From Xanthostigma xanthostigma (taxonomy: Eukaryota > Arthropoda > Insecta > Raphidioptera > Raphidiidae): a DNA stretch of 64,000 nucleotides. The stretch covers positions 3,596,001 to 3,660,000 of the forward strand of contig OY754467.1 of assembly GCA_963575645.1 (NCBI GenBank), read 5' to 3'. Position numbers and translations under genes: made by a program. The notes under the pieces are model-generated. The model did not search any database, was not told where the DNA came from, and saw only the letters and a program-made list of their open reading frames with translations. How positions within the stretch are numbered: position 1 is the first letter of the stretch; every line of letters begins with the position of its first letter. Positions 5,160-50,259 of this stretch are shown here, in pieces.

Positions 5160-6020
5160 ATTGCACATACCGCTAAACTAGCGGTATGTGCTTTATTATC
5201 GCTTTGTGCGTCAGAGCTGACTTTCGTTCATATAAGAAGTTATATCTAAGTTAATTTCACACGAAATCCATTCAAATTGAAGCTTTTTGAAAAGAGGAGA
5301 TTCTAATCTATAAAATAGAACCATTTTTAAATCAATTTGAGTTCATAAATACTATTAAAATTGTAATTGAAAATCACAAACAGCAGTTGTCGGTTGGTCT
5401 GTACGTATGTACGTACGTACGTACGTCACGACTCTACAGATCGCAATTTTGGTCGGATTGCCTTGGGTTATATTTTATTCACTTTGTTTACTATCAGACC
5501 AGAACCCTATTTAAATTCACTAAAATGTGTTCAGTAGTTTAATTTTTATAAACAGTTTTATTTTTTATTATTTTTGACAGCTAATAGTTTAAAAACAATA
5601 TAATAATTGCTGTGTAAATATCTATAGTGTAATCCATAAAACAAGTGCTACACTTGTATACCGTGATAACACCACTACACGTATTAGGCCGCCGTGGCGT
5701 AATGGTTATGCCGTTGGATCCCCAAGGGCAAGGTCCTGGGTTCGATTCCTTACGAAATCATTGATTTTTTTCTTTTTTTTTTCTTTTTATTTTGTTTTAT
5801 TTTATTCCACTTGATATTAATTATATATTATATTATGTATAGTTCTTAATTTTTTTTATTTTTGCAAACTTAAAAAAAATATTTTTTCAATTTTTAATTA
5901 TTTATTTCTTTAAATTTTTAAATCTTTTTAAATTTATTAAAAATATTTTTTAATTATTATTTTTTTATCATACAGTGGAAAACTTGCGGGATGTGCACTT
6001 TTGGTTTTGCCAACTATTTT
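5160..6020 (+). mobile_element. tRNA-bearing non-autonomous element T, copy 1
   Basis: It is collinear with 17096-17890. The left end is a perfect palindrome (GCACATACCGC...GCGGTATGTGC, 5163-5191). The right end carries GCGGGATGTGC near 5987-5997, an inverted match of 10/11 to the left. Inside are a GTAC/GTAT microsatellite (5402-5426), a region ending TATACCGTGATAACA, a tRNA-like sequence and an AT-rich tail. No ORF of note. The superfamily is unresolved. Confidence 0.65.
5688..5757 (+). pseudogene. tRNA-like sequence carried by element T copy 1
   Basis: Box A-like TGGCGTAATGG and box B-like GGTTCGATTCC are spaced as in a tRNA, about 70 nt in all. The D-stem GGC...GCC pairs, but the anticodon arm is degenerate and I cannot assign an amino acid. 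Element T copy 2 carries a different tRNA-like sequence at this place. Confidence 0.55.
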
Positions 6021-6820
6021 CATATTGTTTTTAAAAAACGATATTTTGATACAGACCTACGACAATAATTTTATTCCTCATTAGTTTCCATTTACAGTTA
6101 TTTTTCTTTTGATTTAGCTTGATCCATCAAGTTGTCTCTATGTTTAATTGGTTATAAATTCAAAAAAAATGTATGAGATCTGTTCATCGTTGTCATGGTT
6201 ACCCCGCAAGAGCTGTCACAATTCATTTTTAGAAAATCTAACCTCATTTGATACATTTACGATTTTCACTATTTTTTTCTGATCTGAGACCAAATTTTAG
6301 ACTTGGTACAGTCCATGTAATATTTAAAAACTCTATTTTGGCATTAAATTTACATAAACTTACACGTTCTTAAATTATTTGGAAAATAAAATAAAATTTA
6401 TTTGTGCATTAATATTTGAAATATTTGCGCTAAAATACAAACTAAAAATATACACTTCAATTGTCAAAGTCGACTTGTCAAAATGTTTGTAAAATCTCCG
6501 ACATACGTACATATTTGCATTTCTCTCCCACTCATGTCTCGTGAACATCGAAGGATTTTCTCTCTTTACGTTCCTCTTCACCCCGCTACCCCCTCGTCAT
6601 TTTTACTATTATCGCTTGAAATCACCCCTTTTAAAGAAATTTCACCAAAAAAAAAATAGCGATAACATATCTGTGGACTAAAGGCATCAGTTTAAAAAAA
6701 AAATTGTGTCAATCGGTTTAGTAGGGATGGCTTGCGGATTGTCTAGAGATTTAGGGCTTGTGTTTTAAATATATAGATAGTCGTAGAATTGAAATATTGC
6801 ATTCGATTTACCTAGATACC
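6021..6820. other. AT-rich gene-free stretch
   Basis: No repeated family, RNA gene or coding region was recognised. Poly(A/T) runs occur near 6645 and 6690. Stops are frequent in all frames. Confidence 0.5.
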
Positions 6821-7045
6821 GCACTGTACGGGTCAAAGCCAACTATGAGCGTGGAGTCAACGTCTATTATGTAGGTGTACATAAGCTGGTACGTTATTTC
6901 ATCGGCGATTATTATTATGAATCCGAATTCCACGGGATCAACCGGAAAGCGCGCTGTACGGACCGAAGCCAAGTATTAGCAAGGGGTCAATATTTGTTAT
7001 GTAGGTGTAAGTTGTGTAAATTGGTGCATTATTTCATCGTCGATC
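6821..7045. repeat. Diverged tandem duplication, period about 130 bp
   Basis: CGCACTGTACGG...GTCAACGTCTATTATGTAGGTGT...ATTTCATCGGCGATTAT at 6820 is followed by a diverged repeat from 6950 (CGCGCTGTACGG...GTCAATATTTGTTATGTAGGTGT...ATTTCATCGTCGATCAT). Confidence 0.65.
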
Positions 7046-7102
7046 ATATCGTGTGTTACAATAAGTACCTTCTTAGTTTAATTTAATATTATTATCACGT
7101 TC

Positions 7103-7140
<38 letters not shown>
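7103..7140. repeat. (AAT)n microsatellite
   Basis: About twelve uninterrupted AAT trinucleotides. Confidence 0.9.
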
Positions 7141-7450
7141 CGTTTAACGTCCGTTTCTTGGCTTTATGTCCTAACAGACGCCATTCGCACCTTTACTATT
7201 TTCCATCTATCACACATCCCGTTATTTTCTACATTTTTAAACTTCCACTTAATTAATAGCAATGGGCGAATGAAGGAATTTTAAGACATTTAGGCAATTT
7301 TTGGGCATATAAGTTTGACAGGTACCTAATCGACTATGGCTTTGAATAAGGAACCATCTCGATATTTATTTGAAATTAGAACAAGATGGCCGGTACAGGA
7401 ATTACCGTTTCTCGGCGAGAGGCAGCAGGAAAAAGTCCCAGTCACATCTG

Positions 7451-7519
7451 CCCCCGCCAGGATTCGAACCCGGTACCGCTCGTATGCGAGTCTAGTGCTC
7501 TCACCATTACGCCATCCCG
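7451..7519 (-). pseudogene. tRNA-derived SINE-like head
   Basis: The reverse complement has box A-like TGGCGTAATGGTGAGAGC and a perfect box B GGTTCGAATCC, with a T-stem CCGGG/CCTGG that pairs. The acceptor stem does not pair (CGGGATG against CGGGGGC), so this is a pol III promoter-bearing tRNA relic. The SINE body limits are not clear; a CCGCCGCTGCCGCCGCC tract lies at 7575-7595. Confidence 0.55.
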
Positions 7520-7820
7520 TTCTATATTCAAGGTCCTTCGAAGTCGAAAACAGAAATAAACGGTGTGGATAAGGGCCGCCGCTGCCGCCGCCAGTGGTCT
7601 CTGGGTTTCTAAAGACTGTCAGGTCAGACGATATCGGACGACAGCGGTGATTTTTATCTACACGCAAGGACGCAAACGCCACGCATCGAACTTTAATGAA
7701 TGGCCACATGTCATGACTGGGCCGATCCTTGCATCGATCTGAACTTTGTGTGTGATACCGCGCGGTCGATGTGACGGAACGTTTCGCTTACGCAGTCCAT
7801 GTATACTCGAAAAGCAAAAA

Positions 7821-8393
7821 GTATGTAAACGCGTAAGGTGCACGTAAGGAAATTAGCATATGGAAAAAATACTTGGATCAGAGTTAGTCATGACTGCATT
7901 AATTGTTATTTTTATTGAATTATCGTGGTAATCTTGAGGATTTATATTTTATTTTGAATATATTTTTATTTTACTTGACTTTTTTAATAATAAAAAGCTC
8001 TTATAAAACATTATTTTAATTTTTTTGTACAAAAATAAAACAAAAAAACAACTCCATCTGTTTGGAAACATTTCATTCAAAAATTCTCTGACTGATATGA
8101 CGTATGCGCGTTGGTAAATCAGTGACCCAAATGTCTTTAGGTTCAACACGAATAGGCGGAGATATTTGATCTCGCACCATATTTAAGTATTTTTGGGAAT
8201 TTAATGTGCCATTAATAAAAAAAGTCCGATTATGTTGTAATCATTTGAATATTTTCTTCGGTAGTATACACATTCATTTTGCAAAAGAATATTATCTGTC
8301 AAATTGAAAAACAAGATTTCAAGGCTCACTCTGATCCAGTCATTTTTTCCCCATGTTAATTTCCCTATGTGCACCTTACGTGTTTACATACTG
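7821..8393 (-). mobile_element. Tc1/mariner-type element, family H, copy 1
   Basis: Terminal inverted repeats of about 60 bp start (CA)GTATGTAAACRCGTAAGG and include TGCACRTARGGAAATTARCAT and CTTGGATCAGAGT. The right end reads ACATACTG followed by TA. It is the same family as 54641-55220, in the opposite orientation, with the first two bases lost at the left. Confidence 0.7.
8053..8230 (-). pseudogene. Tc1/mariner transposase fragment
   Basis: Translation shows blocks such as GTLN..KYL, VRDQIS, then VREFLNEMFPNRW. The last is like the (V)REFLN..FPNRWIGR segment before the third catalytic residue in Tc1/mariner-superfamily transposases. The frame is broken and the rest of the catalytic domain is absent, so this is a fossil. 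The family call is from memory of the motif. Confidence 0.55.
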
Positions 8394-8406
8394 TATAATA
8401 TTAAAC

Positions 8407-8600
8407 GCTATTGAGACGAAACGCAGATGATTTCGCATTACTTGGCATAGTAACTCCTTTCTCGACGTAGACCCCCTAATAAATTTAAAAATTGATGACA
8501 TTCACATGATCAAGGTCGTGACAAATTTTGATTTTTAGACTATTTACCTCTTTTCACCTTTTGAAGGGGTTGTTTTTGAAAAAGCATGTAACAAGTTAGT
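8407..8600 (-). mobile_element. Helitron family G fragment
   Basis: ATTGAGACGAAACRC, TTTCTCGACGTAGACC and the GAAGGGGTTGTTTTTGAAAA block match 60050-60245 in order. The terminal hairpin seen at 60034 is not kept here. Confidence 0.5.
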
Positions 8601-8661
8601 GTTTATTTATTTGTTATAATAATAATAATAATAACAATATTTAACCTAGCTATACTAAGTA

Positions 8662-9180
8662 TAGATGTGAATAGTCCGCGGATATCCGAGAGAGAAGAAA
8701 GATCCGTATCCGTATCCGTTAGTTTTTAGCGGATCTTTTACCTTATTAATTTTCAATTCATAGATGAAATTTTATATATATATAGGTGATGAGGTAATAA
8801 TGAAAAACTGTTAAATTCCATTCAGATTATTCTTTATTTTTTAAAATCGTATTTGGCGCCTTTATATTGCAAACATTTATCGTAGTGAGTACCATACCAA
8901 TAGTACATAACTCAAAGGTACTCAATCTACTATATCTTTATAATGAGATATTGAACATTGATCTTTGAAAACAGACAATCTGTTATGAGAGTTAAGTCTT
9001 AAAAAGGTCAATAACTTTTTCCCATAACAGATAGTCTCTTTCCAAAGGTCGATGTGCAATATTTACCGCCGCGTACTTTAAGAAAGTTAAGATCCGTATC
9101 CGTATCCGCGGAGCTTGAAACCAAATATCCGTATTCAGATCCTTATGCGCGGATATACATTTTTAACGATCCGGCACATC
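8662..9180. mobile_element. Putative hAT-like MITE rich in GTATCC repeats
   Basis: The left end TAGATGTGAATAGTCCGCGG and the reverse complement of the right end (TAGTGATGTGCCGGATCG) are partly alike. Subterminal GATCCGTATCCGTATCCG occurs near both ends (8700 and 9092). No matching 8-bp flank was found. Confidence 0.45.
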
Positions 9181-9184
9181 ACTA

Positions 9185-10430
9185 ATAATGTCGCAGGCTA
9201 CCGGTACGTTGGGCGACCTCAGCTCGATGCAACTTGAGCTATCCATGAGCGTATAGTCGAAGGTTCAATCTGTTGATCAAGCCGGAACGTCACTGCATTG
9301 ATTTCTGCTCGACGGTGCGCATGACAATACAAATCAATTTTATCACTCGGACATCAAAAATATTGGCAAAACTTCAATGTCTATGAACAGGGTCGGTTAA
9401 ATAAGCTTTGTTGAGATATCTAGTTGGAGGATATTGCATTGGGGTTGCAAAATTACAAAACCCTTAATAAATGATTCGTGCGCAGGTTTTGAACTTTCCG
9501 GTGACCTCCGGGCTCCATTCAAATGATCTTTTTTACAGTTGGTTTATTTTTCTCGACAAACTTAAAGCACAAATTTCGTTGGCTTGCAGAGAGTAATTTT
9601 TGTAAGTAAAAGTATTGGTCAATTTATTTTAATAAAATATTCTACTTTCAATTTAAGCTGTCCTAATTTGTAATTTTCAGCGTGTGTGTGTTAGAGAGAG
9701 TCCAGATTATAGACGCTTGATAACTGAAATCGTTATCGTCTAAATATATTTTAAAATACCTATAAAAGAAATTGATTTAAAAAAAAAATTAAATACATAC
9801 CTATTATTATTTTAAATGTGTTCCATAATAAATTTTAAGTATCTACTTGTACAAAATACTTTAGCAGGGGCGTACCGATAATGGGGCAAACGTGTCCACA
9901 CTCGTTTCTTACATTTTGAAGCCCTTCCACAAATTACCTCTAGAATTGTATGTAAAAAAAAACATTGAAAAAAGCATTTTTTAAATTCTACGTAGGGGGC
10001 CCCAATTTTACTTCTTGACCCGGGGCCTCCGTGGTTCTTTTAGCAAGTATTCAAAAAACAATTTAAAATAGGCACGACTGAAATATTTTAAATGCTTTTT
10101 TGCACACTCCCCTGTAAAAACCTGCTTTTCATGCAAGTATTATAGCGGTAGTAAAATTATTCATTTCGCACTCGTGCGTGAAGTAAGACATTTCAAATGC
10201 ATGAAAATCCAAAACAGCCAACAATATTAGAAGTGAACTTGCTCAAAATCGAACTGAATTGTAAAACAGCGCCACACAGCACCATCTGTTGAAGGTTAAA
10301 ACAACACTCGCTATACTAAATTATTTACGAGCACCATCGTTTGTATACCGCGTAATCTGTATGACTAAATATTTTACGCCAATGGGAGCGCCATCTGTAA
10401 CAGCAACACACGCAAATCAAACTGAGCCAC
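9185..10430. other. Gene-free stretch
   Basis: Nothing is firmly recognised. A GGGGGCCCC-bearing scrap lies near 9995-10030. At 10440-10455 the sequence GCCGGGTACAGCTAG followed by T resembles a Helitron 3' terminus, but I could not find a good hairpin before it. Confidence 0.35.
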
Positions 10431-10570
10431 ATCAGACAACGCCGGGTACAGCTAGTCTTTGAATAAAAATCCTGCTTGGAAATATTTGTTTGGTCGGCTA
10501 GATTCAATCAGGGTTGCCAATTTAATAATAATAATAAATTCCTTTCACTCCTAAGTGGAGCATAGGGCCT

Positions 10571-11215
10571 CTACGAAATTTTTAAATCAGTCCTATCTTT
10601 CGCCATATGTTTGACTTGAAGCCAGGTAGTTCCTTGTTCCATAACTTCTTCACGAACAGTTCTTCTCCAGGATATTTTTGGTCTGTCTCTTTTTCGGTAT
10701 CCCTGTGGGTTCCAATCCAAGGCTCTCTTCGCTATGTCGTCATCTGTCTTTCGTAGCGTGTGTCCTCTCCAATTCCATTTCCTACGTTTTATAGTAACAC
10801 AGATTTGTTCAAGACATGCATGCTTCCAAAGTTCGTTGTTCGAGACGTGTTCATACCATTTCACCTTGAGGATTGCTCTAAGACATTTGTTTATGAAGAT
10901 TTGCAGTTTAGTTGTTACGGCTTTCGTCACTTTCCAAGTTTCAGATCCATATAGAAGGACCGATTTTACATTCGAGTTAAAAATACGTAACTTCGTTTTT
11001 TCAAAAATCTTGCTTGAATGCCAAATACGATTTAAACTTCCGAACGCTTGGGATGCTTTTTTGATTCTACTGTCTATATTCACTTCTGCTCCTCCATCAT
11101 TGCTAATTGTACTGCCCAGATAACAAAATTCTTTCACTTCTTTAACAGGTATATCCTTTATTACCAAGGAGTTGGCAACCCTGGATTCAATTCGTGACTC
11201 AAAGAGTTGATACAA
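10571..11215 (-). pseudogene. LINE reverse transcriptase C-terminal fragment (RTE-like)
   Basis: The 214-residue open frame encodes a typical non-LTR retrotransposon tail: FCYLGSTI near residue 31, TKLRIFNSNV...LLYGSETW near 75-95, then RRKWNWRGHTLRK and ALDWNPQG near 145-175. These are hallmarks of the region after the RT palm in RTE-like LINEs. The endonuclease and RT catalytic motifs are missing, so the copy is 5'-truncated although the frame is still open, which suggests a fairly recent insertion. The frame ends at a stop just before an AAT tract (10523-10540). Confidence 0.75.
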
Positions 11216-11802
11216 CTTTATAGATAACCTTAATTGAATGTATTTCTAAGCGGTACGGCAATATGTTGCTTTCCTTAATCTGATCTAAGTTGAGCAACAA
11301 ATAAATCGATCTGTGGTACAGCAAAAGCATGTACAGAGATACTGCTTATGCATGTATCTTTATTATCATCAAGTGGCGGGGGCAAAGCCGGTACGGCGCT
11401 AGATTCTTCTTGTATAAGGAAAGGGGCCCATCATGTGTGAGGGTGGCTCATTGGCTTTTGTGTTGACTCAGCGCGTTCAAGTCTTGTGTAGCAACGGTGT
11501 ACATACTTACACCGGGATCAATGCAGAATTATTCTACAACCAAATCGAACGGATGGAGCGGTAATATGCCAATGAAAAATATTTTTGGGCCCAAAAATAC
11601 CGAATAATTCTCCGAACCGTTTCAAAATTGAAATTTAACCGATTAGTAAAGATAAAAATGTGCTTCCAAAATTTTATTGAAATCGGCCAGACAGGAACGG
11701 ACTTAAACATTTTATGAAAAGATTAGTTTGTAGATAGATATTATTTATTAGTGAAGGGTGAATTTATTTTTGTAAATTGATATCTAGTAATATTGAAATT
11801 AA
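11216..11802. other. Gene-free stretch
   Basis: No repeat family or coding region recognised. A GGCGGGGGCAAAGCCGG segment at 11375 stands out in GC content but without clear meaning. Confidence 0.35.
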
Positions 11803-11880
11803 GAAAAAAAATTAAAATCTTTATCTAACGTCTGATTAGAACTCTTCAATAAATAAAATTATCGACCAATAAAAATAAAC

Positions 11881-12231
11881 TTGATTAAAATTATTAAAAA
11901 GGGAAAAGATAAAATTAATAAATTACAAAAACATAATGTTGTATACAAAATTAATTGTGAAAATTGTAATAAGAATTATATTGGTCAAACAAAAAGAGCT
12001 CTTAAAACAAGAATAAGAGAACACCAAAATAATCATAAATTAATCCCTGACAAACATAATGTAACAACTAAACACAAATTAGAACTTGACCACAAAATTA
12101 ATTGGGATAATATAAAAATTTTAGAAAATGAAACTAATTCTTTTAAAAGAAATATTTCGGAAATGTTACATATAAAATCAAATAAAAATTCTCTCAATGC
12201 TCAATTAGATACGGTAAATTTAAGTATATAA
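11881..12231 (+). CDS. Penelope-like GIY-YIG endonuclease domain (5'-truncated)
   Basis: This 116-residue open frame is the C-terminal end of a Penelope-like retroelement protein. VVYKINCENCNKNYIGQTKR (about residues 20-39) is the GIY-YIG core, followed by LKTRIREH, a His/Lys-rich linker, and NWDNIKILENE...KRNISEMLHI...NSLNAQLDT near the end. In the family this domain nicks DNA for target-primed reverse transcription. The reverse transcriptase part is absent; the frame begins right after the terminal repeat at 11870. It starts at a TTG only by convention and is not expected to be made from here. Confidence 0.75.
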   Translation: MIKIIKKGKDKINKLQKHNVVYKINCENCNKNYIGQTKRALKTRIREHQNNHKLIPDKHNVTTKHKLELDHKINWDNIKILENETNSFKRNISEMLHIKSNKNSLNAQLDTVNLSI

Positions 12232-12329
12232 TATATAATATTATTTTGAAATAATATTTTGTTTTTAATAATTTTTTCTTTCTTTTTAGGTATTCACAAT
12301 TATTTCTATGACTACTTAATAAAAAATTA

Positions 12330-13013
12330 GGAGGTTGATCCGTTACAGTCCCAATCAAAAGTAAGTCGAATTCTAAATGGGAACTTTTATAGTTTATAAG
12401 TCGATGATACCAATAAATTATTGTCATAAAGGCATAAATAAATAATTTTTTTAATATTAATTAATTATTTCAGTACTTTATACTTAATGGACTAACTTTT
12501 GTATTTTTGTACAAAGTTATGTTAAAAAAAATAAATTTATGTAAATATCTGTATTTTACATATTTTTTGCAGTAAATAATTGAAAAAAGAAATTAGAAGT
12601 AATAAAAATTAAAATTGAATCATTAAAAAGTTGAAAAATCAGTTACAATTGTTAAATCTGTCAAGAATAAAAGTCCATAATCGGAAAGTACTAAGGTTTA
12701 ATATTTTTTTTTATTGATTAAAAGTCTCCTAATTAAATTGGAAAAAATATTAAAATATGCGTAAGACATCGATGATTTACTTAGATAGTTTTCGGAACTG
12801 CTGACATTATTTGGTTATAATTAAAATGAACAGTTTGCATGCTGGTTGACATATTTTCCATAAGACTACATGTAAAAGTTTTTTTTAATTTTTAACTTTA
12901 TAAATCTCCTAATGATTTTGGATTTTTTACAGAAAATTTTGTCATAAAAAAATCTATTAAAAAAACTTTATTTCAGATTTTTTTCATTATCTTCGTAAAA
13001 CGGCTCAACCTCC
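12330..13013 (+). mobile_element. TTAA-type MITE, family C, copy 1
   Basis: Ends GGAGGTTGATCCGTT and CGGCTCAACCTCC form inverted repeats. The flanks are ATTAG and TTAT, a decayed TTAA. Length is 684 bp with no transposase. Three better copies (38540, 55805, 59055) have intact TTAA on both sides, as for piggyBac-like transposition; the terminal bases are not canonical piggyBac. Confidence 0.7.
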
Positions 13014-13071
13014 TTATAAAAAGCGAATTAGAATTAAATATTAATTATTTCTTATATTTTTTAGATCAGTT

Positions 13072-13103
13072 CTGAAGAAGCTCTAAATCCGGATCGAAAC
13101 GTA
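13072..13103 (+). ncRNA. Hammerhead-ribozyme-like motif in Penelope P1
   Basis: CTGAAGA (13072-13078), a potential stem II, then GAAAC (13096-13100) and GTA follow the order of a hammerhead core. Stem II is partly degraded (CTC against GGATC). Penelope elements are known to carry such ribozymes. Probably inactive. Confidence 0.45.
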
Positions 13104-13170
13104 CATGTATTAATTATATGTTTTGTTAATATATTGTCTGAAAAATTGGTCGATAATTTTATTTATTAAA

Positions 13171-13585
13171 AAAAATATTATTTTAAGGCATGTATTAGGG
13201 GGTTAAAATTTTTATTTTGTCTAAAAACGCCACACTGCCACTGTACGCAAATACACTATATTGTCGGCAGGGTTTCACACTGCGAGTCGAGTTTTTTAAT
13301 TTTGACGAGACGAGGTGAGTTCGGTGTCTGTCGGAGTCGTAAGGACGAGGCGGTATAGTGATCGAGGGCACGCTGAGTTCAACTTAAGAACGGCCGGTGT
13401 TCAGAACAAACAGGCACAGGGTGGCGCTAACAACGCCACCCACCCGTCTCTATATCCATGCTCCAACAGTACCTCTCTACTGCACAGAACTCTCTCAATA
13501 GCTGTTGCAAAATGTAGTAGATGTGTAACAGTTTATGGCTAAAGCACGATCGCCATTCACACAACACGCCCTTCGCAACCAGTTT
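13171..13585. other. GC-richer gene-free stretch
   Basis: It contains an inverted pair GGTGGCGC...AACGCCACC near 13421-13442 and a CGAGACGAGGTGAGTTCGG stretch that looks like a splice donor context, but no supported gene. The short open frames have no recognisable domain. Confidence 0.35.
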
Positions 13586-14130
13586 ATTAAGCTATTGCAT
13601 AGCTTCTATCGCGGGCTTTGGGCGCGGCGACCGAATCAAGAAATTCCGTAACGAAAAAAAACCTAACACCCCCCACTCCGACCGGCACAGCGGTGCGGCG
13701 TTGACAGCCGTGCATCGTCTAACGTCGTTTCAGTTCGGCAGACTTCGGCACGGTGTTTGTGTGCTCATAACTGCATAACTTCTCATAACTGATTCTATCT
13801 TTATTTGTGTATAAATGAATTTATATATAATACTGCTATAAAAATAACCTAAATTATTTAGGTTATGTGCAGAGAAAGTATACCTATATGATATTATATC
13901 TATATAAATGTACATCGCGCGAAATTCTATGATCAAACTCTTAATATCGTTCTTTTTGTTCAAATTTTTTGAATGAATAATTGTTTTGGTGTGTAATTAC
14001 ACTATTTATACCTTATTATTTATACCTAGCTATTTTCGTTTTATAGAGAAGAAAAACTTAAAGACATAAAAGGAATATGCAATAGCTTTACCGCGGCAGT
14101 CCCCGAGTGCCACACGTATTTTTTTTCATA
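13586..14130 (+). mobile_element. Repeat family D, copy 1
   Basis: Near-identical in inverted orientation to 57548-58205. Both ends contain AAGCTATTGCATA inverted (13588 and 14079-14092), followed outward on one side by GGCAGTCCCCGAGTGCCACAC. Internal blocks include AACCTAAATTATTTAGGTT (palindromic, 13848-13866) and a GCACAGCGGTGCGGCGTTGA region. Probable DNA transposon; superfamily not assigned. Confidence 0.6.
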
Positions 14131-14203
14131 TTAGCGGTCCCGCTCGGTTTCACCCGGGCGCAAAAGAAGGGGGGGGGGGGCATGAGTACACACATTCATC
14201 TTA
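14131..14203 (-). mobile_element. Helitron family A fragment (copy 4)
   Basis: Minus-strand 3' end with the CCGGG-type hairpin and GGACCGCTAA (CTAG mutated). A run of about twelve G lies at 14169-14180. The copy is cut at 14203 by the MITE at 14204. Confidence 0.6.
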
Positions 14204-14616
14204 AAGCCGCTGCACACGAGGCTAGAAACGCTGCTAGGAGTTCTGCTAGCCGGTAGGTTGGGTACGAAGCTGGAAATGACGTCACTGCGGGCTGCCTTGC
14301 TAGCTCAGAAGATAGGTTTTAAAATTAGAACAGGGGCTATTTTCCCTGCTAGGTGTGAGCAAGAACCAATCAGGAAGCAGTATCTTCACGTGGGCACTTG
14401 AACACCCACATGGCGTCATTCTGCCCGTTTTGCTCTGTGTTTATATTCGAACTGTCACTGTGCGCGCACCAGATCTATCCACAAAACACGCTTGAAAAAT
14501 AATCTCGTGTGAAGCGAGCACTTAACAGCAATCAAGAAAACCAGCGCTAGAAAACTAGTATAAGGCAAATCTAGCAAGGAATCTAGCAGCGTTTTTAGCC
14601 TCGTGTGCAGTGGCTT
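14204..14616. mobile_element. MITE with about 34-bp TIRs and TTA target duplication
   Basis: TIRs read AAGCCRCTGCACACGAGGCT and continue ARAAACGCTGCTAG, about 31/34 matching. TTA flanks both sides (14201-14203 and 14617-14619), as for PIF/Harbinger elements. Length 413 bp, no transposase. A diverged relative lies at 3118. Confidence 0.7.
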
Positions 14617-14625
14617 TTATAGTCA

Positions 14626-14925
14626 ATGTGCCCGTCGGCAAAAATTTTACTCTCCCCAAACTTTGTATATGGCTTTCATTAGGCCTAGTCTGACACCTAT
14701 TTCCTCTATGACTTTTCTTGATTTTGGGGCGTTTTAAGTTTTCCGAAAGATGTCATTTTGACGACATGTAAAAACTTATAGATACTGTTTGTTGTTTTTT
14801 TTTAATTGGATAGCTTAAAAACTTCAACCAAAACGCTAAAATAATGTTCTCTGACAAATACATGAACCATTTAAAATGTCTGACACCTCGAATATGTTCG
14901 ACATAATTCGAGGTTATCTAGATAT
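14626..14925. repeat. Partial foldback element (half of the one at 32510)
   Basis: GCCCGTCGGCAAAAATTTTA, AGGCCTAGTCTGACACC, AATTGGATAGCTTAAAAACT and TGTCTGACACCTCGAATATG are shared with the palindromic element at 32510-32930, but the order shows a deletion/inversion of the inner arms. Confidence 0.65.
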
Positions 14926-14937
14926 ATATTAAATATC

Positions 14938-15391
14938 GTGTCCTACAAGATCAACAGACTATTTTCTAACACAAATATCAAGTTGGTGTTTTATAACTTA
15001 AATAAATTAGACAGATTATTCACAAGTCTTAAAGATAAAACATCTATTTTACATCAATCTAATTTCATTTATAAAATACCTTGTGAATGTAGTAAGTAAG
15101 TGTTATGTGGCGCAAATCAGACAGTTACTAAAACATAGAATTTACCAACACAAAATGGACTGTAGAAACATAAATTTATTAAGTGATAATAAGACCGCGT
15201 TGTCATCTCATCATTTCGACACTGGACATAAATTTCTATTTAACGAAGTTCAAATATTAGATAAAGAGTCAAATTGGAAGAAACGTAATATCAGTGAAAT
15301 GTGTTTTATTAGAAAAAACAATTCTATTAATTATAGAACAGATACTCAAAATGTAAGTAGTCAGTACAACTATATTATGAAATTGAACTAA
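14938..15391 (+). pseudogene. Penelope-like GIY-YIG endonuclease, frameshifted
   Basis: The first frame (14938-15096) gives NTNIKLVFYNLNKLDRLF then LHQSNFIYKIPCECSK and stops. A +1 shift near 15090 leads into RQLLKHRIYQHK, TGHKFLFNEVQILDKE and KKRNISEMCFIRK. Joined in description only, this is the linker and GIY-YIG domain of a Penelope protein different from P1. The frameshift marks it dead. Confidence 0.7.
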
Positions 15392-15500
15392 CTTTCGAAT
15401 TTTTAATTTTTTAACTTTTATTATTGTTTAAATATTTATACATAAACTTGTTGCCATGTTTCCTTAAAAAGTCTAAAAATATAGACGAAACGTCGTACAT
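14938..15500 (+). mobile_element. Penelope-like element fragment P2
   Basis: It carries the end of the Penelope ORF (14938-15391) and, at 15470-15500, a GTCTA...TAGAC stem followed by GAAACGTCG, the 3' part of a Penelope-type hammerhead whose CTGANGA box is lost. Confidence 0.6.
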
Positions 15501-16325
15501 TTATAAATATAACTTTTGTCCACAAACCTGCGAATTTTTTCTTATTAGTTGTCTAGATATTTTATTTGTATTTTGTGGTTACTTTTTCAGTGTCCAAATA
15601 ATTATTATCAAAATCGGCCTGCAACTGTTTTCATATGCTGCAATGGGCCAAGTGAGAACAGGCAAGTGTAGAGACCCGGTGCTGCTGACGGTTTAGCTAC
15701 TATACCCTCCCTCGTCCGCCTCCTCTCATTCCCCTCTCGTTCGCCAGCCCTCAAACGATCAACAATTTTATGGCAAAGGCATCGAATATAAAACAAATAT
15801 ATGAGAGCGCGAAGAATGAACGGGGACAGCCGGTCCCAGCCGACGGAAAATTCGGTTCACTATGAACAATTCAGTGATCCGAAAATCTGACTCGAATGAT
15901 TCCATCATTCCAAATCTTCTTGGTTACCCGGACTCGAAGGCCGCAATCAATTGGCGTTTCTACCTGACGTTGCGTCTACAAGTGCGGTAGACATTATCAA
16001 AAACGCTGTGGCCAAGTGTCCTCCTTGACGGTGTCGAAGACTGGTGTTCTCCTTTCTACGACCGAGCAGAGAGCACCAACACGCATAAAGGAAGGGAGAA
16101 CATTAGTCAACGACACACTTACCTGTGAGCCGCCAAACTGGATACTTAGTCCACCGCAGTTGTAAGCGAGACGTCAGATATACCAATGAACCACAGTCTA
16201 CAAGCCTGGAAATAAAAAAATATTTGGAAAAATTCCGGCCGTGAAAGCCTACTTGGAATCCATCTAAGTGACTCGTTATACTATAATAAACGTCTTAGAG
16301 TACTTAATTTATCGTAACGCCTAAT
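15501..16325 (-). repeat. Degraded Penelope-type tail P9 and unknown sequence
   Basis: At 15905-16200, the blocks AATCTTCTTGGTT, CGTCTACAAGTGCGGTAGAC and ACACTTACCTGTGAGCCGCC recur at 40175-40260 and 41100-41300. On the minus strand they give a GTCTAC...GTAGAC stem followed by a GCAAC/GAAAC box, like a Penelope hammerhead. 15501-15900 holds nothing else I can name. Confidence 0.4.
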
Positions 16326-17095
16326 AATATATTACACCACAAGGGCCGAAAGTTTAATATTCACACGCGCAGTGCAAGGTATCAAACTTTCGACCAGTGT
16401 GGTGTATACTATTTTATTCAACTCATGCGCGTTATTCATGTTTTATCATGCCTAAAAACCGAACCCTAAATAGCCATTTACCGACTGGTGACAATTACTT
16501 GTCATAACTCAATGAAGATTCCTACTAGCTCGGCCATTGTGGAGTAATGAAAATAAACGTAACTAATTTCTGAGTCGTAACGAAATAGTCGGTAACAACA
16601 AGTCCGTTGTTACCCATTGAGGCTAAAATTGAGAGGCCGAATGTTTTCGACATGGAGTTTATTCATAACCGGCTAACCTTAAACCAAAACATTGAATCGT
16701 GCTGTTTGGTGCTGTTAGTATTGACAGTTTTTTTTATAAAGAAATAAATAGATATTTACATCTCATTAATAACAATAAATAAAACATGAATAACGCGCAA
16801 TTGTTGAATAAAATTATGTGCGTAACTTGTAGGCTAAGTCATGACCTGTCAGCGCGATGAATGACTTAGACTACTAGTTACTCCAATAACTATTTCTTCA
16901 TACCTCGGTCGTAAGTACGCTTATTAAATACATTAATTAATTAATTACATAAAAACACAGATAAGTTACAAGCAAGCAGCTTTGAGATTATACGTATATA
17001 AAAACACGAATGACAGCTGCTCGCGACTATTAGCTATAATGACAATGTAACAGGGTTGCTATCGAAACGACATCTAAACAACAGTTGATAGGCTA

Positions 17096-17890
17096 TTGCA
17101 CATACCGCTAAATTAGCGGTATGTGCTTTATTATCGCTTTGAGCATCAGAGCTGACTTTCGTTCATATAAGAAGTTATATCTAAGTTAATTTCACACGAA
17201 ATCCATTCAAATTGAAGCTTTTTGAAAAGAGGAGATTCTGATCTATAAAACAGAACCATTTTTAAATCAATTCGAGTTCATAAATACTATTAAAATTGTA
17301 ATTGAAAGTTACAAACAGCAGTTGTCGGTTGGTCTGTACGTATGTACGTATGTACGGATGTACGTATGTACGTATGTACGTACGTCACGACTCTACAGAT
17401 CGCAATTTTGGTCGGATTGCCTTGGGTTATATTTTATTCACTTTGTTTACTATCAGACCAGAACCCTATTTAAATTCACATAAATGTGTTCAGTAGTTTA
17501 ATTTTTATAAACAGTTTTATTTTATTATTTTTGACAGCTAATAGTTAAAATAAAAAACCTTAAAAAAACAAAAAAATATCTATTACTGTTATTGTAATGT
17601 AGTGTATTACGTAGAATAACTGCTCCACTTCTATACCATAATAACAACGCAAGCTGGGATATCAGAATGGCCGAGTGGTTAAACGCGTAGTCCAGTAATA
17701 GCAAGGTGCCGAGTTCGATTCCCGCTGACACCAAGTAATTTTTTTTTTCTATTCCATTTTATTTTTATTTTTTTTTCTATTTTTTTAATTGTTTTTTTTT
17801 TAAATCTATTTTCTCAATTTTTTTTCATTATAATATGTACCTACAGTGGAAAACTTGCGGGATGTGCACTTTTGGTTTTGCCAACTATTT
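17096..17890 (+). mobile_element. tRNA-bearing element T, copy 2
   Basis: It has the same left palindrome, GTAC microsatellite, AATAACA block and right GCGGGATGTGC as 5160-6020. It sits inside repeat I: the empty site at 49785 reads AACAGTTGATTGG then GCTTTACGATCGCCCG. No clear target duplication. Confidence 0.7.
17655..17732 (+). pseudogene. tRNA-Ser/Leu-like sequence carried by element T copy 2
   Basis: TGGCCGAGTGGTTAAACGCG is a textbook D-arm/box A of tRNA-Ser/Leu, and GAGTTCGATTCCC is box B-like. The acceptor GATATCA against TGACACC pairs at five of seven positions. The anticodon arm is not clear. It differs from the tRNA-like part of T copy 1. Confidence 0.6.
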
Positions 17891-18010
17891 TTGTCTTTAC
17901 TGTCGCCCGAACGTACGTACGTCCCGCATCAGTGCGTGTAATCCCACCAATGCGCAAATGTTAGCGTTTCTGCCTTACAATTGATGCCAAAAGTATGTAT
18001 GAGGTATGAA

Positions 18011-49499: not shown

Positions 49500-49915
49500 G
49501 AACTCTAATTTTTTAAGTCATGCGCCATGATGCCTAAGGGCATCATGAAGCGCAGGGCAAGGCTATGACACCTTCAGCCAGGGTGGTGTATACTATTTTT
49601 CTTCATGCCTCGGTCGTGAGCACGCTTATTAAATACATTAATTAATTAAAATATAAAAACACAGATAAATTCCAAACAAGCTTTGAATTTATACGTAAAA
49701 ACACGAATGACAGCTGTTCGCGACTATTAGTTGAAATGTAATAGGGCTGCTATGGAAACGACATCTAAACAACAGTTGATTGGTTGATTTTGCTTTACGA
49801 TCGCCCGAACGCACGAATTTTCCGCATTTGGGCGTTTAATCCCACCAAGGAATAAATATTAAACATTCTGCCTTAAAATTGGCGCCGAAAGTAGGCACTT
49901 TCGATCGAGGTATGA
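49500..49915 (+). repeat. Repeat family I, copy 2 (empty site for element T)
   Basis: Starts with a strong hairpin (49521-49554, TGCGCCATGATGCC / GGGCATCATGAAGCGCA) and continues with the family I blocks without the element T insert. Confidence 0.55.
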
Positions 49916-50259
49916 ATAAAAAGAATATGAAATATCGAAGAAAAAACATCGATATTCACCGACTTGTCGAAAAATACCATCGACGTTATCATCGAAAATA
50001 GAAAGTAGAGAATCGACTTTTTCAAACATTGATGTATCGTGTGCATAAAAATAAACTTTAATCTGTATATCGCGTTTGGCTCAATTCGCACGGCGCGGCG
50101 TGGGGTCTCAAAGTCTGTTTCCCGCAGTGGATTGCATTTCCTAGAGATATATATATTCGACATATCCGATCGGCCGAACCCTGTTTCACGATGCGTTAAT
50201 AGTTTTTGCGATGGGATCCTGCACCGCTCTTATCTGTATCTATCCTATAATCAGTATAA
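49916..50259. other. Gene-free stretch
   Basis: Nothing recognised. Confidence 0.4.

Follow-up and report, generated by a model that had tools for sequence, protein, structure and literature searches.

How can two copies of one DNA element carry different transfer RNA (tRNA)-like sequences at the same place? The question is raised by a 64,000-nucleotide stretch of the genome of Xanthostigma xanthostigma (contig OY754467.1, positions 3,596,001 to 3,660,000 of the forward strand; hereafter the window), in which an earlier note had described two copies of a DNA-type element with common ends, a microsatellite and common flanking blocks around two different tRNA-like sequences, and had suggested repeated capture or a site at which tRNA sequences enter by recombination. 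The copies were placed correctly within a few bases (copy A at 5161-6016 and copy B at 17096-17887) and their tRNA-like stretches do differ (approximately 5688-5756 against 17661-17729). Copies A and B represent two subfamilies of one non-autonomous rolling-circle transposon, a non-autonomous Helentron (HINE) of the DINE-1-like kind, and are members of a large family of such small DNA elements that have a tRNA-like promoter block in the central part. Taking all of the evidence together, we think it probable that this is a modular HINE with an exchanged RNA polymerase III (Pol III) promoter module of one old origin, the boxes of which are kept by selection. The features to which the text refers are as follows.

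5161..6016, + strand: HINE copy A, with a type A central module (ends from the nested empty site at locus L098, described below; uncertain by at most 2 T's)
5163..5191, + strand: copy A 5' subterminal repeat with inverted partner, a 13-bp hairpin (from the fold and the genome pattern count)
5400..5427, + strand: copy A GTAC/GTAT microsatellite, in the 5' module
5625..5675, + strand: copy A conserved upstream block of the central module (TATACC at 5657-5662)
5676..5687, + strand: copy A hypervariable leader (5 of 12 sites polymorphic in 50 copies)
5688..5756, + strand: copy A tRNA-like part (A box 5695-5705, B box 5739-5749; no cloverleaf)
5765..5771, + strand: copy A T run, resembling a Pol III terminator
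5973..6016, + strand: copy A 3' end (3' subterminal repeat GCGGGATGTGC at 5986-5996; palindrome TTGG...CCAA at 6001-6013)
17096..17887, + strand: HINE copy B, with a type B central module (ends from the empty host repeat at 49698-49893)
17098..17126, + strand: copy B 5' subterminal repeat with inverted partner, a hairpin (z -8.24)
17335..17387, + strand: copy B GTAC/GTAT microsatellite
17600..17648, + strand: copy B conserved upstream block (TATACC at 17632-17637)
17649..17660, + strand: copy B hypervariable leader (7 of 12 sites variable in 11 copies)
17661..17729, + strand: copy B tRNA-like part (A box 17668-17678; B box 17712-17722, with A and not G as its first base)
17739..17748, + strand: copy B T run, resembling a Pol III terminator
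17844..17887, + strand: copy B 3' end (3' subterminal repeat at 17857-17867; palindrome TTGG...CCAA at 17872-17884)
49698..49893, + strand: uninterrupted host repeat, the empty site for copy B

A DINE-1-like rolling-circle family

Aligned in the same orientation, copies A and B are identical at 421 of 459 columns of a left block (26 gap columns, E 0.0) and match again at the right end (E 9e-29), with a tetranucleotide microsatellite in common, which bears out the description of two related copies; blastn with either copy as query found no third full copy in the window. The left end TTGCACATACCGC is joined directly to its own inverse and folds, as DNA, into a 13-bp hairpin with a z score of about -8 (-15.1 kcal/mol and z -8.41 in copy A, for which 0 of 200 shuffles were as good). 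The HINE pattern of a 5' subterminal repeat that lies 2-4 nt inside the end and has a palindromic or inverted partner is present, as are a microsatellite (GTAC/GTAT) in the 5' part and a 3' subterminal repeat complementary to the 5' one (GCGGGATGTGCA against GCGGTATGTGCA, 11 of 12 positions). The 3' repeat is the inverted 5' repeat with one change, followed by TTGG..CCAA and then by the T-rich flank, and it begins 31 bp before the 3' end, nearer than the 38-60 bp given for mite families. The 4-bp palindrome TTGG/CCAA is present, but a DNA fold of the last 46 nt picked another structure (z -1.10). The element appears modular, with a 5' module that includes the microsatellite, then a central module and then a 3' end of approximately 43 bp.

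The published accounts of DINE-1 and HINE anatomy (PMC4067079, PMC2374699) give the pattern of end repeats and microsatellite found here, and the likeness covers the 5' subterminal repeat with its adjoining inverted repeat, the microsatellite after the core, the variable central part, the 3' subterminal repeat with its palindrome, T-rich insertion without duplication and high copy number. The present family differs in having as its centre what looks like a tRNA-like Pol III promoter unit, and in a microsatellite of GTAC/GTAT rather than GTCY.

Searches of the species' own 623-Mb assembly found the exact hairpin pattern at 1684 forward and 1675 reverse places and the reversed-pattern control at 0, and as palindromic variants of the hairpin are counted twice (8 of 92 sites among the 100 rows listed), approximately 3,000 sites are extrapolated genome-wide. 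Fetching 90 of the first 92 hairpin sites on contig C1 gave 74 distinct full-length elements, while 12 loci had no full element within the stretch fetched; these 74, eight from a search biased towards copy A, and copy B make up 83 full-length copies. All but one of them (82/83) start with TTGCACATACCGCTAA, though it was the hairpin, or else similarity to copy A, that had led to them. Some repeats of this assembly have a possibly lepidopteran character. HINEs and DINE-1 elements rank with the most abundant repeats of some insect genomes.

Insertion is into T-rich sites without target duplication. At locus L098 an element is nested in the T run of another element, next to an uninterrupted copy of the same stretch, and the empty and filled sites have ten T's each, so that no target was duplicated. 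The right flank, which follows CCAACT, begins with AT in 82 of 83 copies and is T-rich. For copy B the uninterrupted host repeat at 49698-49893 indicates that the ends of the copy are the ends of an insertion, although this is a less exact test as the two repeat copies differ. That host repeat (window 17001-17995 and 49600-49950) may be a recurrent HINE target, the right flanks of L078 and L082 matching the same site. A cut-and-paste miniature inverted-repeat transposable element with TA duplication was considered and rejected: T and A each stand before the element in 69 of 83 copies, but the right flank is independent of them and the nested site in L098 has no duplication.

One locus, L097, is a head-to-tail array with periods of 940 and 934 in which the 3' tip is missing at both inner junctions, and inner copies clipped in this way are a mark of rolling-circle arrays according to a study of the Pacific oyster element Cg_HINE (PMC7492417). 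In the same locus (1066-1130 and its repeats) D elements, one of the module types set out below, have an extra short piece in the T-rich tail with a second, diverged 5'-like hairpin, GCACATACCGCTAGTGTAGCGG, possibly a nested end. A point against the view that we favour is that no autonomous Rep/Helicase partner with the 5' ends of this family was found in the 4.5 kb upstream of 6 of the 89 genomic Helitron_like_N matches (upstream sides only), some of the 89 lying in open frames of 2,000-2,500 amino acids. Many intact Helitron_like_N frames are approximately 1,555 amino acids long beside this second, longer class, so that canonical Helitrons and Helentrons probably occur in one genome. The end patterns had no exact match in viral contigs or in bacterial and archaeal contigs, and blastn found no match of copy B in plasmids and none of copy A in phages.

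Exchange of central modules

The 74 sampled elements were assigned to types by reading (a spacing script had put L071 and L081 in B and L034 and L051 in A). Type A accounts for 53 of them, A-like variants for 4 (L034, L037, L051 and L081) and type B for 12, of which L043 ends after the B box. Single copies represent type C (L048), a D-like form (L015), a two-module D+A form (L068) and two deleted forms, namely L018, an A element without the upstream block and the tRNA-like 5' half, and L067, a B-like element without the tRNA-like part. Genome-wide screening with the 5' part of A gave 2381 candidates, with the B module 1208 and with the D module 1284 (these being screening counts and not copy counts). 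A tree built from the 5' modules unites the B copies with L048 and L067 (support 0.948) and places this group among the A copies. Modules of the complete types A, B and D carry versions of one upstream block and trailer, and type C has both, with a gap that removes TATACC. We rejected the A-like variants as intermediates, as the three of four compared are not nearer to B than A is, and only old copies stand in between.

Consensus sequences of A (50 copies) and B (10 copies, the divergent L055 having been dropped) are nearly identical at their two ends (5' module 384/393, 3' end 43/43) and much less alike in the middle, where the spacer agrees at 21 of 35 positions, the upstream block at 39/51, the leader and tRNA-like part at 43/79, and the trailer with the T/AT-rich part at 83/112 with 104 gap columns. 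The difference between the 5' module and the upstream block is significant (Fisher P 2e-7). Such unevenness is not obtainable by uniform divergence, so the middle as a whole has another history, and the unit exchanged is a central module of 300-400 bp and not the tRNA-like part alone. The earlier picture of near-identical flanks reaching up to the tRNA borders therefore does not hold, as spacer, upstream block and trailer have drifted too, while its suggestion of exchange stands in so far as recombination does occur, with the whole central module including its flanks as the unit. The upstream block can be aligned between A and B up to approximately 20 bases before the A box, which places the tRNA-like part at a homologous position in both; two versions of tRNA-like cargo at the same place in a DNA-type element, as had been claimed, are indeed present.

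The D+A element records one such event directly. It is 1,175 bp long, with positions 1-734 at 99.6% identity to a D-only element and positions 718-1175 at 95.7% identity to an A element, so that both modules lie in tandem and the crossover falls in a 17-bp T-rich overlap; modules have recombined here within a T-rich tract. Four copies (L068, L094, L095 and L096) are 100% identical over 1,175 bp with different flanks, which indicates very recent movement. The A and B modules were probably exchanged by the same route, and subfamilies may in general trade their central modules as wholes, through recombination or a switch of template within T-rich tracts. Cg_HINE is comparable in that related HINE ends enclose unlike centres, and in PMC7492417 its unlike central repeats are read as incorporated independently into flanks of common origin; as described there, the oyster cargo consists of satellite-like tandem repeats, in contrast to the tRNA-like unit, and the recombinant with both modules, found here.

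Origin of the tRNA-like part

The stretches are not tRNA genes. ARAGORN found 0 tRNAs in the window and in 22 loci, the tRNA covariance model RF00005, run at E<=10, matched neither of the two stretches and none of eight old copies (introduced below), and a functional tRNA gene is ruled out by the want of a cloverleaf and of any covariance match. A search of 12 loci at E<=5 gave one RF00005 match (20.6 bits, below the cut-off), a tRNA-like stretch with a T-rich tail on the minus strand of L066 (1934-1991), near a HINE but outside it, and weak matches to the transfer-messenger RNA model far under cut-off, two of which (13.6 bits, 15 bases) fall at the B boxes of L055 and L095. Evidence for a tRNA origin of the module consequently comes from the boxes, from the way they are spaced and from short stretches of identity to genomic tRNAs, and this counts against the view that we favour.

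Elsewhere in the genome, L136 (C1:65382500-65384300), at 523-1284, and L137 contain a different repeat, 92% identical between its two copies, in which a tRNA-Lys-like sequence with a T-rich tail scores above the Rfam tRNA cut-off (38.4 and 37.9 bits). Loci L107-L111 hold a tRNA-headed family resembling short interspersed nuclear elements (SINEs), with 39-45 bits to RF00005 and no HINE end motifs in the stretches fetched.

tRNA-derived SINEs have internal A and B boxes and can bear different tRNA heads on shared bodies. The occurrence of SINE-like repeats with tRNA heads in this genome, and the combination of A box, B box and T run as in a SINE head, would suit a SINE that had inserted into the HINE and was then carried along, but we regard this as very improbable because the aligned copies have no target duplication, poly(A) or long interspersed nuclear element-like tail around the tRNA-like part, and because the upstream block and trailer are common to types A, B and D and, with the gap, C. 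That the element is itself a tRNA-derived SINE was also rejected: the boxes lie approximately 530 bp inside a DNA element (the A box begins 534 bp into copy A) and are followed by a T-rich stretch and the HINE 3' end, with neither poly(A) nor target duplication. Dada DNA transposons are likewise tied to tRNA sequence, but they insert into tRNA genes, whereas here the tRNA-like part is inside the element.

Whether one module diverged or several tRNAs were taken up was approached through 20 old copies (L116-L135), which a similarity search with L048 had yielded, in many cases by matching its 3' half, and their high identity in the 3' half is therefore biased. They contain this kind of module or its 3' part, and the script recognised the upstream block in 17 of the 20. 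In 18 of them (without L128 and L131) the upstream block and trailer have pairwise identities mostly of approximately 0.8-0.9, whereas individual columns in the leader and in the D and anticodon arms go down to 0.24-0.6, suggesting that the module is old and that the tRNA-like part is its variable core. A further 20 copies found with L133, mostly of one old form, h1, were left out of these identity counts. Against A-type bodies the bodies of three old forms reach scores of 22-48, and against B-type bodies 39-50, compared to 12-37 for A with B.

Capture or conversion, in which genomic tRNA genes or SINE heads recombined in several times and mainly replaced the 5' half (acceptor, D arm and 5' strand of the anticodon arm) to give Arg-, Ser- and Ala-like versions, would account for a leader and 5' half far more divergent between types than the upstream block, and for A-like variants with identities to A of 0.95 upstream, 0.19 in the leader and acceptor and 0.82 in the D arm and anticodon 5' strand. 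The A and B bodies, moreover, resemble each other no more closely than do real tRNAs that differ in isotype (5-74 between pairs of six real tRNAs of this genome), and h1 scores 49-52 with three real tRNAs, as high as with B, and has an 18-base run in common with the tRNA-Arg(TCG) of this genome in 3 of the 6 h1 copies looked at. These similarities tell against a single origin, and the bodies by themselves would fit direct homology or capture alike. If real tRNA halves had been imported recently, D-stem partners should covary, but covariation was not found (the two inner pairs 0.600 against 0.642 in shuffled sets, standard deviation 0.122; a weak test with only 10 haplotypes). We consider capture rather unlikely, and the repeated capture of different tRNAs proposed earlier is unsupported given the upstream block and trailer that types A, B and D share, the old copies between A and B and the D-stem result. 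We infer instead a common origin of the modules, in which the tRNA-like parts of A and B diverged long ago from a single module and were not captured separately.

A tRNA-Cys cluster in Arabidopsis (PMC10701932) is similar in having tRNA genes with a Helitron annotation in tandem units; as described in that paper it is one locus, with expression evidence for its tRNA genes and no reliable prediction by Helitron tools.

Conservation and variability of the promoter-like unit

The tRNA-like part looks like a Pol III promoter unit, judging from the order of TATACC, A box, B box and T run. Both boxes are present in 62 of the 74 sampled copies, TATACC and the A box stand 36-38 apart in 62 of 63 copies, the A and B boxes 44 apart in 58 of 62, and in the 67 of 74 sampled copies where the script found a B box the first T4 lies 14-20 bases past it. 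Across a set of 26 diverse copies, pairwise identity is 0.25 at A-box position 5 and 0.32 at position 6, close to random, whereas the 23 copies without gaps match the box at 6.70 of its 7 defining positions (P 0.007 when the defining positions are permuted within 25 flanking columns to either side).

Type A is locally hypervariable with its boxes fixed. We compared 50 full-length, young A copies of 801-899 bp, from which the four A-like variants were excluded by name and which were not selected by motif, and counted a site as polymorphic where at least two alleles were each seen twice. Polymorphic sites are rare in the 5' module (8/230 and 4/159), upstream block (2/49), T/AT-rich part (14/204) and 3' end (3/43) and frequent in the spacer (12/37), leader (5/12) and trailer (5/12). 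Within the tRNA-like part the defining positions of the A box (0/7) and B box (0/10) do not vary, in contrast to the free box positions (1/4 in A, 1/1 in B) and the remainder (17/47). The leader and tRNA-like part together (24/81) exceed the 5' module (12/389) with P 5e-12, the leader exceeds the upstream block with P 0.002, and the box-defining positions (0/17) fall below the rest of the tRNA-like part (19/52) with P 0.003, although some alleles are common to small groups of copies and the sites are hence not all independent. In another set of 45 copies, picked by motifs overlapping the B box and upstream block and thus possibly biased, the contrast persisted for G/C positions only (12/44 against 4/131, P 1.5e-5) and there were 25 leader haplotypes. 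Many of the differences between young copies affect single sites, which, like the fixed type A boxes amid variable neighbours, argues further against capture. A set of 11 B copies, counting any variant, points the same way, with 7/12 leader sites, 12/69 of the tRNA-like part and 18/387 of the 5' module variable.

Several observations weigh against a promoter under selection. Three of 17 box positions vary in type B (any variant, 11 copies including a divergent one); L018, L043 and L067 have lost part or all of the unit; and its transcription is deduced from sequence. The spacer (window 5588-5624 and its counterparts), which lies outside the presumed transcript, varies like the leader, and mutation by transcription does not explain this. 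The spacer, these losses and the missing cloverleaf would suit a dead relic, whose uneven diversity reflects no more than the age of its subfamilies, its base composition or errors of alignment and whose boxes have survived by chance. We think this unlikely, as the contrast holds for G/C positions only and without motif selection of copies, the box positions stand apart from their neighbours and the spacing is nearly fixed.

The likeliest reason for this pattern would be that in the germ line the promoter was transcribed, or was a binding site of TFIIIC, and that selection kept it as long as it served the element; mutation associated with transcription around the promoter could then make the leader and the sequence between the boxes change much faster than the 5' module does. 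Elevated mutation near the transcribed unit has been described for tRNA genes of other organisms. Pol III transcription of the module and its use to the element seem plausible, and we offer only as a tentative proposal that the family put a Pol III promoter to work as one of its components, that selection acts only on the block resembling a TATA box, on the two internal boxes and on the terminator, leaving the transcribed sequence free and subject to local hypermutation tied to transcription, and that transcription or TFIIIC binding aids amplification, for example through an open-chromatin island, a silencing barrier or single-stranded DNA for the nicking enzyme.

HINEs with a variable centre are known already, and a tRNA-like Pol III unit as the centre was not found in the literature searched, which excludes most subscription papers including the lepidopteran ones cited in PMC4067079, so that such a centre is apparently new within that coverage. 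If the reading is true, a centre that keeps a Pol III promoter at fixed spacing amid a changing remainder would give an element of this kind a testable function; the A, B and D modules and the D+A recombinant offer natural markers of module exchange, and with thousands of copies the local mutation around a Pol III unit could be quantified.

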